Of a DNA stretch of 64,000 nt, positions 54,171 to 63,369 are shown in pieces. Each line of letters begins with the position of its first letter. Positions within the stretch are counted from its first letter, which is position 1. The stretch spans positions 186,001-250,000 of the forward strand of contig JAHBYP010000003.1 of NCBI GenBank assembly GCA_019635875.1, read 5' to 3'. Made by a program: the position numbers and the translations under genes. This DNA is from Alphaproteobacteria bacterium (GTDB taxonomy: Bacteria > Pseudomonadota > Alphaproteobacteria > Reyranellales > Reyranellaceae). The notes beneath the pieces are model-generated. The model saw only the letters and a program-made list of their open reading frames with translations, was not told where the DNA came from and did no database searches.

Positions 54171-54181
54171 TAGCCTCTTAA

Positions 54182-54304
54182 CCTTCCCCCGGAGGGGGAA
54201 GGTGCCCGAAGGGCGGAAGGGGGATGTCGAAGACAAACTCCTGCGTTCGCCTTCGACATCCCCCTTCCGTCGCTACGCGCCACCTTCCCCCTCCGGGGGA
54301 AGGG
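54182..54304. repeat. Palindromic repeat, family 2, copy 2
   Basis: Nearly the same as copy 1 over its whole length. It follows the acyl-CoA ligase stop by 11 bases. Confidence 0.93.
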
Positions 54305-54333
54305 AAATTGAACCCATACAAGGTCACGCGCCA

Positions 54334-54357
54334 CCTTCCCCCGCCAGCGGGGGAAGG
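54334..54357. repeat. Family 2-like perfect palindrome
   Basis: CCTTCCCCCGC-CA-GCGGGGGAAGG, perfect over 11-base arms, 29 bases past copy 2 and 34 bases before the aminotransferase start. It looks like another isolated tip of the element, slightly changed at the centre. Confidence 0.88.
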
Positions 54358-54391
54358 TAGAGTGCGGCGTCCCCGCGTGAAGGAGTTCGCC

Positions 54392-55786
<1,395 letters not shown>

Positions 55787-55796
55787 CCGCTTTTCC

Positions 55797-55950
55797 TTCT
55801 CCCCGCGAAGGCGGGGAGAAGGTGCCCGAAGGGCGGATGAGGGGCTTCGCGGAGGTTCAACAGGGGCAGCGTTCTTTGTTGCGCGAGAAGCCCCTCATCC
55901 GCCTCGCTGGCGCTCGGCACCTTCTCCCCGCCTTCGCGGGGAGAAGGGAG
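55797..55950. repeat. Palindromic repeat, family 3
   Basis: About 150 bases. Tips CTTCTCCCCGCGAAGGCGGGGAGAAGG enclose GTGCCCGAAGGGCGGATGAGGGG and its complement. It shares the GTGCCCGAAGGGCGG core with family 2 but has different tips. Confidence 0.9.
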
Positions 55951-55982
55951 ACTCCACGATCCCATCTGCTAAAACACACGCC

Positions 55983-56744
55983 ATGGACATCCGCATCGAG
56001 GGCGTGACGCATCGTTATGACGGGCTGCTCGTCCTCGACGGCATCGATCTGGCGATCGGCGAGGGCGAGACCGTGGTGCTGGTCGGGCCCTCGGGCTGCG
56101 GCAAGTCGACCCTGCTGGGCATCGTCGGCGGTCTGCTGAAGCCGAGCGAAGGCCGCGTCGCCACGCTGGGCGCGCCGCGCCGCGACTCGCTCAACCCCTT
56201 CACCTACGTGTTCCAGGATTTCGCGCTGCTGCCCTGGCGCAGCGTCGCCGCCAATGTCGCGCTGGCGCTGGAGCATCATCGGCTGGGCGCCAGGGAGCGC
56301 GCGGAGCGCGTGAGCGAGGCGCTGGCGCTGACCGGGCTGCGCGACTTCGCGCAGGCGTACCCGAAGCAGCTGAGCGGCGGCATGCGCCAGCGCGTCGGCA
56401 TCGCCCGCGCGCTGGTCGTGCGCCCCTCGGTGCTGCTGCTCGACGAGCCGCTCTCGGCGCTCGACGCGCAGACCCGCGAGCTCCTGATGGAGGACCTGCT
56501 GGCGATCTGGGCGCGCGAGCGCGGCACCCGGCTCTACGTCACGCACAATCTCGACGAGGCGGCGCGGCTCGCCGACCGCGTCGTCGTGCTGTCGCGCAGG
56601 CCCGGCCGCATCCGCGAGGTCGTCGCCATCGAGGAGCCGGTGGCCAAGCGCGGCGCGGCGATCGTCGCCGAGATGCGCGAGCGGCTGTGGCGGCTGATCC
56701 GCGAGGAGGCGCGCGAGGCCGAGCGCGAGGTGCAGCATGTCTGA
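55983..56744 (+). CDS. ABC transporter ATPase, SsuB/TauB/NrtD type
   Basis: 253 residues. Walker A GPSGCGKS is at 35-42, signature LSGGMRQRVGIARAL, Walker B VLLLDEPLSALD, and the H-loop VTHNLDEAARLADRV follow. This matches taurine/nitrate/sulfonate-type importers. The permease gene overlaps its end by eight bases. No substrate-binding protein gene is adjacent. Confidence 0.95.
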   Translation: MDIRIEGVTHRYDGLLVLDGIDLAIGEGETVVLVGPSGCGKSTLLGIVGGLLKPSEGRVATLGAPRRDSLNPFTYVFQDFALLPWRSVAANVALALEHHRLGARERAERVSEALALTGLRDFAQAYPKQLSGGMRQRVGIARALVVRPSVLLLDEPLSALDAQTRELLMEDLLAIWARERGTRLYVTHNLDEAARLADRVVVLSRRPGRIREVVAIEEPVAKRGAAIVAEMRERLWRLIREEAREAEREVQHV

Positions 56745-57900: not shown

Positions 57901-58125
57901 ATGAAACCGGACGATGACGCCGCCGCCATCCGCGACGCCCTGATCGGCCTCGACGAACTGGTCGACGCCGCCGACGGCATCCTGGCGCGCGCCGCCGATC
58001 CGGCAAGCGGACTGTCACCCGAGGCGGCGCTCGCCGAGTTGGGCGCGCTGCTGACCGGCGAGACCGGCATGGCCGCCCGCGCCGCCGCCGAGGCCGTCCT
58101 CGGCCGCTCCACCGGCGGGGCGTAG
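57901..58125 (+). CDS. Small hypothetical acidic protein
   Basis: 74 residues, mostly helical and alanine-rich (DALIGLDELVDAADGILARA, SPEAALAELGALLTGETG). It ends just before the first repeat array at 58131 and may belong with it. No recognised family. The ATG at 57901 or one nine codons upstream could start it. Confidence 0.45.
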   Translation: MKPDDDAAAIRDALIGLDELVDAADGILARAADPASGLSPEAALAELGALLTGETGMAARAAAEAVLGRSTGGA

Positions 58126-58130
58126 CCGCT

Positions 58131-58164
58131 GACGGTCGATGACGGTGATGACGGTATGGACGGT
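58131..58164. repeat. Direct-repeat array 1 (iteron-like)
   Basis: Four copies of GACGGT at 58131, 58141, 58150 and 58159, spaced 10, 9 and 9 bases. This array runs opposite to the one at 58284-58339. Confidence 0.75.
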
Positions 58165-58283
58165 GCATTCCCCCTCTTTTCTGTTGAAGGGAGGGGGGCC
58201 CGCGCCATCGCAGGCGCGGGGAGGCAGTCCGCGGGCGGCCCTCAGTCCGCTCCGCCATCCCAGCCAGTAAATCGCGCGGAACG
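58165..58283. other. Hairpin-bearing spacer between arrays
   Basis: Contains CCCCCTC and GAGGGGGG arms around a T-rich loop (about 58170-58197), and the perfect stem CCCGCGCC/GGCGCGGG with a six-base loop (about 58199-58220). No gene is visible. Confidence 0.55.
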
Positions 58284-58339
58284 ACCGTCCAAGCCGTCCA
58301 AGCCGTCACAACTGTCAGGGCACCACCGTCACCATCGTC
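58284..58339. repeat. Direct-repeat array 2, inverted relative to array 1
   Basis: Copies of (A/G)CCGTC and one-base variants at 58284, 58293, 58302, 58311, 58325 and 58334. The first four are exactly 9 bases apart. It is the reverse complement of the GACGGT unit. Confidence 0.75.
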
Positions 58340-58410
58340 AGGCCTGTTCTTGCGTGCGTGCTCCTTCTGCCGTTGGCGCACGGAAGGCCACGAACGACGC
58401 GATCTGTCGA

Positions 58411-58432
58411 TTTCCACCCCTACGGTTGTCGA
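58411..58432. other. Shared motif, copy 2
   Basis: TTTCCACCCCTA followed by CGGTTGTCGA, identical to 23313-23334 except for two bases. It lies 25 bases before the FAD oxidoreductase start. Confidence 0.6.
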
Positions 58433-58456: not shown

Positions 58457-59758
58457 ATGCGGATAAACCTCGTTACCAACATTGTCGGAATCGGCCCCTC
58501 GCCCGCCCCTGTCATCGTCGAGGCCGACCTGGCGGTGCTGGGCGCCGGCGTCGCCGGCGTCTCGGCGGCGGTCGAGGCGGCGCGGCTCGGCCGGCGGGTG
58601 GTGCTGGTCGACGGCGCCCCGACCCTGGGCGGCCAGTCGGTGGCGGCGGCCATCGGCACCTTCTGCGGCTTCTATTCCAACGGCCCGAGCCCCTACCCCA
58701 CGGTGCACGGCATCGCCCAGGAGATCATCCGCGACCTCGACGCCCAGGGCGCGCTCCGGCCGATCCACGGAAGGCGCAACACCATCATCGTGCCCTACGA
58801 CGAGGTGGCGCTGGGCCGCTGGATCGAGCGCAAGGTGGCGTCGCTGCCGCAGATCGTGCCGCTGACCGGCGCGCTGCTGCTCGACGTGGCGCGCGACGGC
58901 GGCCGCATCCGCTCGGCGCGGCTGGCCACGCGCTACGGCATGGTCGAGCTGCGCGCCTCGGGCTGGATCGACGCCTCGGGCGACGCGGCCCTGGCCTGGG
59001 CGGCGGGCTTCGCCTGCCGCGAGCCCGAGACGCCGGTCTGGGGCACCAACATGATGGTGCTGGAGGGCGTCGAGCGCGACGCGCTCGCGGCCATCGACCG
59101 CGCCGAGGTCAAGGCGCGGCTCAGCGCCAAGTCGGCCGCCTACGGGCTGCGCCGCCACGACGGCTTCCTGTTCGCCACCTTCGGCGACGACCGCGCGCTG
59201 GTGAACATGACGCACATCGCCACGCCGCTCGATCCGCTGGGCGCGGCGCGCATGACGCTCGACGGCCGCGACCAGGCCGACCGCCTGCTGCTGTTCCTGA
59301 AGGACGCCTATCCCGCGGCGTTCGCCCGGGCGACGGTGCGCGTTTACGGCCAGCCCGGCATCCGCATGACGCGCTGGATCAAGGGCCGCCATCACCTCAC
59401 CGTCGAGGAGGTGCGCCAGGGCGTGCGCCACGACGACGCCATCGCCCGCTGCTCCTGGCCGATCGAGCTGCACAACCGCCCGGACGACGTGCACTGGGAG
59501 GAGTTCGGCGACGACCACATGCACTGGGTGCCGCTGGGCTCGCTGGTGCCGGAGGGTGCCGACAACCTGCTGGCGGCCGGCCGCTGCATCGACGGCGATC
59601 CGGCGGCGCTGTCCTCGGTGCGGGTGATGGGCCCCTGCATCGCCACCGGCGCCGCGGCGGCGCACGCGCTGGACCTCGCCGGCTCGGGCTCGGTGAGCCA
59701 GATCGACGTCAAGGCGCTGCAGGCGCGGCTGCACGACAATCTCGATCGGCGCGACTGA
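58457..59758 (+). CDS. FAD-dependent oxidoreductase
   Basis: 433 residues. The N-terminal FAD-binding motif is AVLGAGVAGVSAAVEAARLG and is followed by LVDGAPTLGGQSVAAAIGTFCGF, as in the FAD-dependent oxidoreductases with a cysteine near the flavin (PF12831-like). The C-terminus has LLAAGRCIDGDPAALSSVRVMGPC, the usual second FAD-binding segment. I chose ATG at 58457, since further upstream is repeat-like. It precedes the liv genes and may act on the imported substrate. Substrate unknown. Confidence 0.88.
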   Translation: MRINLVTNIVGIGPSPAPVIVEADLAVLGAGVAGVSAAVEAARLGRRVVLVDGAPTLGGQSVAAAIGTFCGFYSNGPSPYPTVHGIAQEIIRDLDAQGALRPIHGRRNTIIVPYDEVALGRWIERKVASLPQIVPLTGALLLDVARDGGRIRSARLATRYGMVELRASGWIDASGDAALAWAAGFACREPETPVWGTNMMVLEGVERDALAAIDRAEVKARLSAKSAAYGLRRHDGFLFATFGDDRALVNMTHIATPLDPLGAARMTLDGRDQADRLLLFLKDAYPAAFARATVRVYGQPGIRMTRWIKGRHHLTVEEVRQGVRHDDAIARCSWPIELHNRPDDVHWEEFGDDHMHWVPLGSLVPEGADNLLAAGRCIDGDPAALSSVRVMGPCIATGAAAAHALDLAGSGSVSQIDVKALQARLHDNLDRRD

Positions 59759-61211: not shown

Positions 61212-62078
61212 ATGCTGACCGACATCATCCAGGCGACCATCATGGGCCTGCTCACCGGCATGGTGTACGGGCTGATGGCGCTCGGGCTGTCGGTGATCTT
61301 CGGCGTCATGCGCGTGGTCAACTTCGCGCATGGCGAGATGATGGTCGTCGGCATGTACCTCGCCTGGCTGCTGTTCGAGCGGCTCGGCATCGATCCCCTG
61401 CTCGCCGTGCCGCTGGTCGCCGCCGCGCTGTTCGCCGCCGGCTACGGCCTGCAGCGCGGCCTGATCAACCCCTTCATCAACGTCGCCGAGCACATGCAGT
61501 TCATGCTGCTGCTGGCGGTGGCGATCATCATCGTCAATCTCTGCCTGCTGATCGCCGGGCCCGACACCTACGGCGTGCAGGTCGACTACATGTTCGATTC
61601 CTACGCGCTGGGCCCCTTCACCTTCGACGCCGTGCGCGTCTACGCCGCGCTGGCGGCGATGGCGATCGCCGGGCTGCTCTATCTCTTCTTCACCCGCACG
61701 CGCATCGGCAAGTCGATCCGCGCCGCCGCCGACAACCACACCGGCGCGCTGGTCGTGGGGCTGGACGTGCCGCGCCTCTACGCGCTGACCTTCGGCATCG
61801 GCGCCGCCTGCGTCGGTGCCGCCGGCGCGCTGATGATCCTCGTGGTGCAGGCCCAGCCCTTCCTCGCCATCGATTACACGCTGCTGGCCTTCGTCATCGT
61901 CATCGTCGGTGGGCTGGGCAGCATGCCCGGCGCGCTGGCCGGCGGCCTGCTGATCGGCGTCTCGGAGTCGCTGGCCGGGCTGCTGATCCAGCCCTCGCTG
62001 AAGAGCGTCTTCAGCTTCGGCCTGCTGATCCTCGTGCTGCTGCTCAGGCCTCAGGGCCTGTTCGCGCGCCGTGGTTAG
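61212..62078 (+). CDS. Branched-chain amino acid-type permease (LivH-type)
   Basis: 288 residues with about eight hydrophobic segments. GLLTGMVYGLMALGLSVIFGVMRVVNFAHGE is the N-terminal LivH signature region; FVIVIVGGLGSMPGALAGG is the coupling loop. Ribosome binding appears to be the GGGGGAAGG end of the preceding repeat or AAGAGAG after it. Operates with the LivM-type permease. Confidence 0.95.
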   Translation: MLTDIIQATIMGLLTGMVYGLMALGLSVIFGVMRVVNFAHGEMMVVGMYLAWLLFERLGIDPLLAVPLVAAALFAAGYGLQRGLINPFINVAEHMQFMLLLAVAIIIVNLCLLIAGPDTYGVQVDYMFDSYALGPFTFDAVRVYAALAAMAIAGLLYLFFTRTRIGKSIRAAADNHTGALVVGLDVPRLYALTFGIGAACVGAAGALMILVVQAQPFLAIDYTLLAFVIVIVGGLGSMPGALAGGLLIGVSESLAGLLIQPSLKSVFSFGLLILVLLLRPQGLFARRG

Positions 62079-62092
62079 TGCGCGCTTTCATA

Positions 62093-62217
62093 CCTTCCCC
62101 CGGAGGGGGAAGGTGGCGCGCGCAGCGCGACGGAAGGGGGATGCCGCAACGAAGCCGGTGTTCGTCTTCGACATCCCCCTTCCGCCCTTCGGGCACCTTC
62201 CTCCTCCGGGGGAAGGC
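62093..62217. repeat. Palindromic repeat, family 2, copy 4 (reversed)
   Basis: Same tips, but the internal GCGCGCAGCGCGACGG and CCCTTCGGGCACC segments are swapped relative to copies 1, 2, 3 and 5, so this copy is in the opposite orientation. It ends nine bases before the LivM-type start. Confidence 0.93.
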
Positions 62218-62225
62218 AGGTAAGC

Positions 62226-63227
62226 ATGTGGCAACGCCTCACATCGGGCATGACGCCGCGCGGGATGATCGCGCTGGCGGTCGTGGGCGCCGTGCTGCTC
62301 GCCGCGCCGGCCGTGATCGGATCGTACCCGCTGTCGATCCTGATCCTCGTGATCTACTTCGCCTATATCGGCCAGGCATGGAACGTGATGATGGGCTTCG
62401 CCGGCCAGCTGTCGCTGGGGCATGCGCTCTATCTCGGGCTGGGCGGCTACACGGCAGCGGCGCTCGCCTTCCATTTCGGCCTCTCGCCGTGGCTCGGCAT
62501 GGTCGCCGGCGTGCTGGTCGCCATGCTGGCCGGCGGCCTCGTCGGCTTCCTCGGCTTCCGCTTCTCGCTCGCCGGCGTCTATTTCGCGCTGCTGACCATC
62601 GCCTTCGCCGAGTTCACCCGTATCCTGTTCGACCATTTCAAGTGGGTCGGCGGCTCGGCCGGCCTGTTCCTCAAGGTCTCCGGCGATGCGGGCCTGTGGC
62701 ATCTGCGCGGCGGGCCGGTGATGTTCTACTACGTGATCCTGGCGCTGGCGGTGCTGGCGCTGGTCGCCTGTCGCCTGCTGCTGACCAGCCGGCTCGGCTA
62801 TTACTGGCTCGCCATCCGCGAGGACCCCGAGGCGGCGCAGGCCAGCGGCGTCGACGTCCTGCGCTGCAAGATGATCGCCGTGCTGATCTCGTCAGGCATG
62901 GCGGCGGTAGGCGGCGCCTGGGCGGCGTTCTACTACAAGAACCTGTTCCCCGAGACCGCCTTCGCCGTGGGCCGCTCGATCGAGGTGATCCTGGCGCCGA
63001 TCATCGGCGGGCTGGGCACGCTGATCGGCCCCTTCGTCGGCGCCGCCCTGCTGGTCAGCCTGGGCGATCTCTTCACCATCGCCGCCGAGCGCATCGGCGA
63101 GGTCTTCGGCATCAAGACCGCCGGCCTCAAGCAGATCTTCTACGGGCTGGCCCTGCTCTGCATCGTCGCCTTCCGCCGCGACGGCGTGTGGCCCTGGCTC
63201 GCCCGCAAGCTGGGCTTCGTGCGATGA
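62226..63227 (+). CDS. Branched-chain amino acid-type permease (LivM-type)
   Basis: 333 residues with about ten hydrophobic segments. AYIGQAWNVMMGFAGQLSLG and the later LIGPFVGAALLVSLGD are LivM motifs. GGGGGAAGG from the preceding repeat ends nine bases before the ATG, an ideal ribosome binding site distance. Operates with the LivH-type protein. Confidence 0.95.
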   Translation: MWQRLTSGMTPRGMIALAVVGAVLLAAPAVIGSYPLSILILVIYFAYIGQAWNVMMGFAGQLSLGHALYLGLGGYTAAALAFHFGLSPWLGMVAGVLVAMLAGGLVGFLGFRFSLAGVYFALLTIAFAEFTRILFDHFKWVGGSAGLFLKVSGDAGLWHLRGGPVMFYYVILALAVLALVACRLLLTSRLGYYWLAIREDPEAAQASGVDVLRCKMIAVLISSGMAAVGGAWAAFYYKNLFPETAFAVGRSIEVILAPIIGGLGTLIGPFVGAALLVSLGDLFTIAAERIGEVFGIKTAGLKQIFYGLALLCIVAFRRDGVWPWLARKLGFVR

Positions 63228-63242
63228 GGGCGCTCGCTCATA

Positions 63243-63369
63243 CCTTCCCCCGGAGGGGGAAGGTGCCCGAAGGGCGGAAGGGGGATGTCGAAGACGGACT
63301 CCTGCGTCCGTCTTCGACATCCCCCTTCCGTCGCGCTGGCGCGCGCCACCTTCCCCCTCCGGGGGAAGA
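63243..63369. repeat. Palindromic repeat, family 2, copy 5
   Basis: Same orientation as copies 1-3. It ends only about four bases before the ATPase ATG, so the GGGGGAAG of its right tip must be part of the translation start region. Confidence 0.93.

Follow-up and report, generated by a model that had tools for sequence, protein, structure and literature searches.

Arrays, hairpins, and predicted fold at the locus

Two opposed arrays of short repeats lie near the end of the window, i.e., the whole stretch of 64,000 nucleotides that was analysed; these arrays and the features between and beyond them are given without strand. The left array (58131..58165) consists of four GACGGT units starting at 58131, 58141, 58150, and 58159 (spacing 10, 9, and 9 bp). 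It faces the right array (58281..58340) of six complementary, CCGTC-type units (CCGTC at 58285, 58294, and 58303, CTGTC at 58312, CCGTC at 58326, and TCGTC at 58335), which are spaced by 9, 9, 9, 14, and 9 bp. The initial annotation had described four GACGGT units facing six complementary ones, four of these exactly 9 bases apart; its coordinates were confirmed, and TRF recovered the arrays independently (58130-58165, 58285-58307, and 58321-58340). On the minus strand, which is that of the ancestral gene described below, the left array is the distal CCGTC-type array, as judged from the homologous block of a paralogous copy (C2_999 vs L107:10107-10154), and the right array still reads ...LTVVTAWTAWTVVPRDLLA..., similar to VTFMTSVPFWTGTCSDLLA of the ATPase.

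Hairpins had been annotated between the arrays and are present there, their number being three rather than two. Hairpin 1 (58170..58198, CCCCCTCTTTTCTGTTGAAGGGAGGGGGG) corresponds on the minus strand to the codons for LSSKGKE in the ATPase relic on contig C8, and is directly followed by hairpin 2 (58199..58221, CCCGCGCC/GGCGCGGGG). Hairpin 3 (58231..58250, GCGGGC/GTCCGC) was identified by eye; its position is kept across paralogs but its sequence is not, and it is weak (3 pairs) in the RNAalifold consensus. A conserved core (CAGCCAGTAAATCGC, 58261..58275), found in 4/4 close copies, corresponds on the minus strand to DLLA of the ATPase. Beyond the right array, an operator- or promoter-like motif (motif 1, TTTCCACCCCTACGGTTGTCG, 58411..58431), which in the C8 operon also precedes the start of the primase gene, is followed 56 bp further on by a second, degenerate copy (...ATTGTCG, 58467..58487) that marks the right-hand limit of homology among the four close copies.

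In the predicted fold, the two arrays pair with each other to form a single long stem. RNA structure prediction, which had been proposed as a check, gave a far better fold than shuffled sequences (-117.4 kcal/mol, z = -6.4; none of 200 dinucleotide shuffles folds as well), and the DNA fold reached z = -4.6. A small ORF of 74 aa adjoins the element (57901-58125, plus strand); its coding status is uncertain, and searches against Pfam and PHROGs returned no match. None of the neighbouring genes that were examined was recognised as a replication gene.

Related elements in the same genome

Paralogs were searched in the window's own genome (6.2 Mb, 17 contigs). With the window region as query, three close copies were found (C10:79.6k, C2:999k, and C2:907k), and a covariance model built on the four close copies recovered three further ones (C4:405k, C8:145.5k, and C8:24.1k). 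The genome hence holds about seven related elements at unrelated sites, six of them solo intergenic copies; the copy at C8:24.1k coincides in part with the 3' end of a primase-ATPase operon that carries a frameshift. In the close copies, which are flanked by unrelated chromosomal genes, one array is followed by hairpins 1 and 2, CARCCAGYAAATCGC, and the complementary array; motif TTTCCACCCCTACGGTTGTCG lies about 60-100 bp further on, with a second motif 56-58 bp past the first, after which homology ends. Since the complete unit is present at three more places in the genome, the arrangement is not due to chance.

The array unit varies by copy (TGACGGTGA, TGCCGTTTG, TGCCTGTGG, and TGACGGCTC), and left arms fit the right arm of their own copy better than the right arms of the others (observed sum reached in 80/5040 permutations, with one arm, in L105, poorly chosen). 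RNAalifold on the copies yielded 7 pairs with changes on both sides. The fold is conserved and the sequence is not, with arms covarying both between copies and between lineages. Every copy found in the genome appears decayed. Phage and plasmid sequences gave no blastn match to the element, and exact-pattern scans for the core CCAGYAAATCGC in the genome and in viral contigs retrieved chance matches only, without arrays. Matches of the covariance model in other genomes (L090-L096, E 0.002-0.08) were rejected, as on reading they look like chance.

Collinearity with a decayed primase-ATPase operon

The operon on C8 (L107:10089-12850, corresponding to C8:24088-26849) lies on the L107 minus strand and encodes a CHC2/Toprim primase followed by an ATPase with the end ...VTFMTSVPFWTGTCSDLLALLEARAGERTVKSRDWPGNARKLGNRLRRIATALREAGTDIRFERTDGARVIHLSSKGKEAETTSETARTSWSMEL. 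The ATPase is frameshifted near its N-terminus, so that no intact ATPase copy was found in the genome. In the codons of this relic, the right array corresponds to VTFMTSVPFWTGT, the core to SDLLA, hairpin 1 to LSSKGKE, and the left array to ETTSETARTS. As the C8 copy overlaps the 3' end of the operon, the source of the element was identified.

The connection to the solo copies runs through C2_999, which shares 83% identity with C2_907, is clearly homologous to the window copy, and is collinear with the C8 operon in three blocks. Left array and hairpin 1 match L107:10107-10154 (75%, E 3e-4), core and right array match L107:10321-10386 (74%, E 3e-4), and motif 1 matches L107:12935-12949, just upstream of the primase; these solo-to-operon matches are short (48 and 69 bp for the first two), and the E-values of about 3e-4 derive from a small search space. 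Compared directly, the window copy and the C8 operon share only motif 1 and, weakly, the core, the remaining link being provided by the homologs. Traces of DLLA and other ATPase codons remain on the minus strand of all four close copies. Given the collinear blocks and these codon traces, the close copies are best read as operator plus 3' arrays from which the genes were deleted.

The statement that no listed gene explains the arrays was not borne out: a deleted gene does explain them. In the window copy the putative initiator gene is deleted; in relatives, the arrays sit immediately 3' of the ATPase gene. On the best reading of these comparisons, the window copy would be a dead or parasitic internal-deletion derivative of an element organised as operator, primase, ATPase, and 3' iterons. 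A working origin at the locus was not borne out, given that no replication gene was found among the neighbours examined and all copies in the genome look decayed, and we infer that the window copy is no longer active. It is unlikely that the solo operator-plus-iteron elements are alive as MITE-like replicon parasites that primase-ATPase elements multiply or mobilise in trans; if true, this would explain four copies sharing one deletion structure, the occurrence of several array-only copies, and the fact that each array-only copy has its own matched arms.

Opposed arrays at the 3' ends of homologous ATPase genes

Viral contigs and genomes of the same class or phylum supplied the ATPase homologs, whose 3' zones were screened for two 9-periodic 18-mers that are mutual reverse complements (scored as present at ≥14/18). 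This detector replaced an earlier one that needed almost three units and missed shorter arrays. Opposed 9-bp arrays were detected in the 3' zone at 16/26 loci, and with the same detector in none of the 26 control zones of the same genes and in none of 780 shuffles. The count of 16 is descriptive, since detector and cut-off were chosen after arrays had been seen by eye and the stricter version had missed several; moreover, the 26 loci are not all independent (several share one unit), and L144, among the 16, carries a long palindromic pair rather than a clean 9-bp array. The detector found no array in the other 10 homologs, among them the C8 relic and L116; in L116, a second array is visible by eye despite the miss.

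Units differ by lineage and both arrays shift together (CCGTCCGCA, ACCGTCAGC, AGCGTTCCC in L131, CAATGTTCA in L138, and AAGTCCTGA in L140). Facing arrays at the 3' ends read (ACCGTCAGT)n ... (ACTGACGGT)n in L120 and (ACCGTCCGC)n ... (GCGGACGGT)n in L122, and matched unit pairs are AGCGTTCCC/GGGAACGCT in L131 and CAATGTTCA/TGAACATTG in L138. These distinct lineage-specific units are stronger evidence than the count of 16/26, as the sequence drifts and the match between arms persists. Drifting low-complexity sequence without conserved spacing had been named as the outcome that would speak against the initial annotation; the opposite was found, with matched 9-bp arrays recurring across lineages. 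The arrays are in frame at some loci; in L118 and L122 they lie wholly past the stop codon, and those of L117 and L120 do so in part. Hence, it is the DNA and not the peptide that is kept, and selection appears to act on the array DNA.

The distance between the two arrays reaches about 150 bp in relatives. The spacer is GC-rich, with an A+T content about equal to that of the gene at most loci, clearly above it only in L117, L128, and L144, and slightly above it in L121 and L122. In gene direction, GACGG-type units precede CCGTC-type units in the window lineage, whereas other alphaproteobacterial loci have CCGTC followed by GACGG; the winged-helix codons of the C8 relic have one array on either side rather than both arrays after them. 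Both the reversed order and the placement around the winged-helix codons count against the best reading.

The ATPase family and its plasmids

No model in Pfam, NCBIfam, or PHROGs names the ATPase. Its C-terminal domain was predicted with a mean pLDDT of 87 and has the element order of a winged helix, for which Foldseek gave no significant match (best E 0.36); the full-length AlphaFold model was poor (pLDDT 50) and was used only for the C-terminus. Homologs sit on small plasmids of Methylobacterium, Methanothrix, and Streptomyces. Opposed arrays were found downstream of the ATPase in 4/9 plasmid records examined (pM44602, pFP11, pSTS2, and a Chlorohelix plasmid, the latter with a period of 8), placing an iteron-linked putative initiator gene on autonomous plasmids; in the other five, the detector found none after the ATPase gene. 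This P-loop ATPase family, whose C-terminus is predicted to form a winged helix, is represented by loci L125-L131 and L145-L152 and occurs on bacterial plasmids and on those of one archaeon.

Alternative explanations

If the arrays were the closing stem of a transcribed multi-hairpin RNA, or part of a transcription terminator, the fold (z = -6.4), the covarying pairs among copies, and the tolerance of U-G in hairpin 1 on the plus strand would be accounted for. An Rfam search of the region, however, gave no match below E 0.13 and none near gathering, a T-run is absent after the hairpins, and the arrays keep a 9-bp periodicity that a plain stem does not need. In relatives, moreover, the arrays may be coding and stand as much as about 150 bp apart, so that a structured RNA or terminator is improbable. 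The periodicity is what a low-complexity coding tail would produce, 9 bp being three codons, and several homologs do read the arrays in frame, as if these merely reflected C-terminal repeat peptides of the ATPase (TVSTVSTVS, DGADGADG). Such a tail is nonetheless very unlikely: L118 and L122 have their arrays wholly beyond the stop codon, L117 and L120 have part of theirs there, the Chlorohelix array has a period of 8, and arrays that are mutual reverse complements encode different peptides.

A repressor- or recombinase-binding array serving neighbouring genes, as also suggested by the initial annotation, would fit the operator-like motif, which has 54-60 genomic copies and does sit about 70 bp downstream. 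The array, however, recurs beside unrelated genes and tracks the ATPase rather than a recombinase or regulator, which makes this explanation highly improbable; a recombinase or repressor array as such found no support. The resemblance to plasmid or phage origin regions, in contrast, is backed by homology. Close copies are collinear with a mobile-element primase-ATPase operon at its 3' end, and viral contigs, chromosomes, and plasmids carry lineage-specific opposed 9-bp arrays where homologous ATPase genes end.

Comparison with known replication origins

Origins of PICIs lie just 3' of rep and have two iteron sets around a possible melting region (PMC6092414), and the C-terminal domain of SaPI Rep recognises the iterons (PMC6092414, PMC7581432). 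Likewise, relatives of the window copy have a spacer between two sets of short iterons at the 3' end of the putative initiator gene, and the two-sided arrangement of iterons around a spacer, as in PICI origins, is found in the window copy as well. Unlike in PICIs and SaPIs, no Pfam, NCBIfam, or PHROGs model recognises the ATPase, the coding 3' end often contains the iterons, and the window copy has no genes; the spacer is also mostly not AT-rich, in contrast to PICI origins. PICIs as an element family are characterised by int, alpA/rpr, and pri-rep in this order and by phage-dependent induction; the comparison here covers origin layout, and the element is not classed as a PICI.

In the actinobacterial plasmid pWTY27, the RepA footprint is a 105-bp inverted repeat overlapping opposed 7-8-bp repeats, and the RepA proteins of pFP11 and pWTY27 were reported to bind iterons (PMC3583192). 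As in our family, a replication gene adjoins an iteron locus in these plasmids, namely that of RepA, joined in pWTY27 by that of the primase-polymerase RepB; the opposed short repeats of pWTY27 form a long RepA-bound inverted repeat. This comparison is by layout, and homology of RepA to the ATPase family is putative. One ATPase of pFP11 is a homolog of the family and has opposed arrays after its gene, its identity with the published RepA being putative. Unlike most loci described here, both plasmids are actinobacterial, with the array 570-800 bp past the gene.

For pRN1, an essential stem-loop 3' of the replication gene was described, in which structure but not sequence is conserved (PMC4234260). 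With our family it shares the position of a stem-loop, about 100 bp in size, past the gene of a replication protein that ends in a winged helix, and the drift of sequence under a kept structure, whereas pRN1 has no iteron arrays and an SF3 helicase fused to an archaeal-type primase. Iterons aside, no sequence relationship was found to the ori1/crr system of phage P4, in which crr is located near the alpha gene. The winged-helix domain of the P4 alpha primase-helicase binds origin repeats, according to work cited in PMC4234260.

Proposed origin function and its derivative in the window

From sequence comparison, the window element is probably a gene-less internal-deletion derivative of the iteron origin of a plasmid- or provirus-like element, an origin that would be recognised by the winged helix of the ATPase. 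In intact relatives, the ATPase, a member of an unnamed P-loop family, would most likely bind both arrays via its C-terminal winged helix, assemble on each side of the spacer, and melt it, possibly as a stem-loop, upon which the primase could start synthesis on the opened spacer; array binding, spacer melting, and replication initiation are thus inferred functions. The window element is best read as a relic, or possibly a parasite, of the iteron origin of this unnamed primase-ATPase replicon family.

The window copy by itself is modest, and the main result is the family-level pattern, which ties an unannotated oddity to an initiator family that is unnamed in Pfam, NCBIfam, and PHROGs. Members of this family are found in bacteria, on small plasmids and viral contigs, and on one archaeal plasmid, and origin positions are predicted for these replicons. 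Because the arrays differ by lineage yet stay matched, a specificity code between winged helix and iterons becomes testable.

Operator-like motif and other repeats

Motif 1 has 54-60 copies in the genome (up to 3 or 2 mismatches), compared to 0 for a reversed control pattern. The motif (TTTCCACCYCTACGNNTGTCG, 58411-58431; e.g., in L028, L034, L037, L039, L042, and L045) often has a second copy 56 bp away. At least nine paralogous genes have the motif about 60-110 bp upstream; they resemble phage replication initiation proteins, and the one tested matched PHROG 1408. The motif is also found upstream of other genes and is nearly absent in related genomes; its sites look like a mobile-element operator network. 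The arrays were also considered as the 3' end of these motif-sharing phage replication-initiation (FWT) genes, which was rejected, as those genes end without arrays. A further, abundant dispersed repeat (translation LPPPGEG / PSPSGGR) occurs in the window at about 54178-54430, 55648-56007, 62044-62250, and 63140-63350 as well as in L023 and L107, between genes and at gene edges, and also beside the primase relic.
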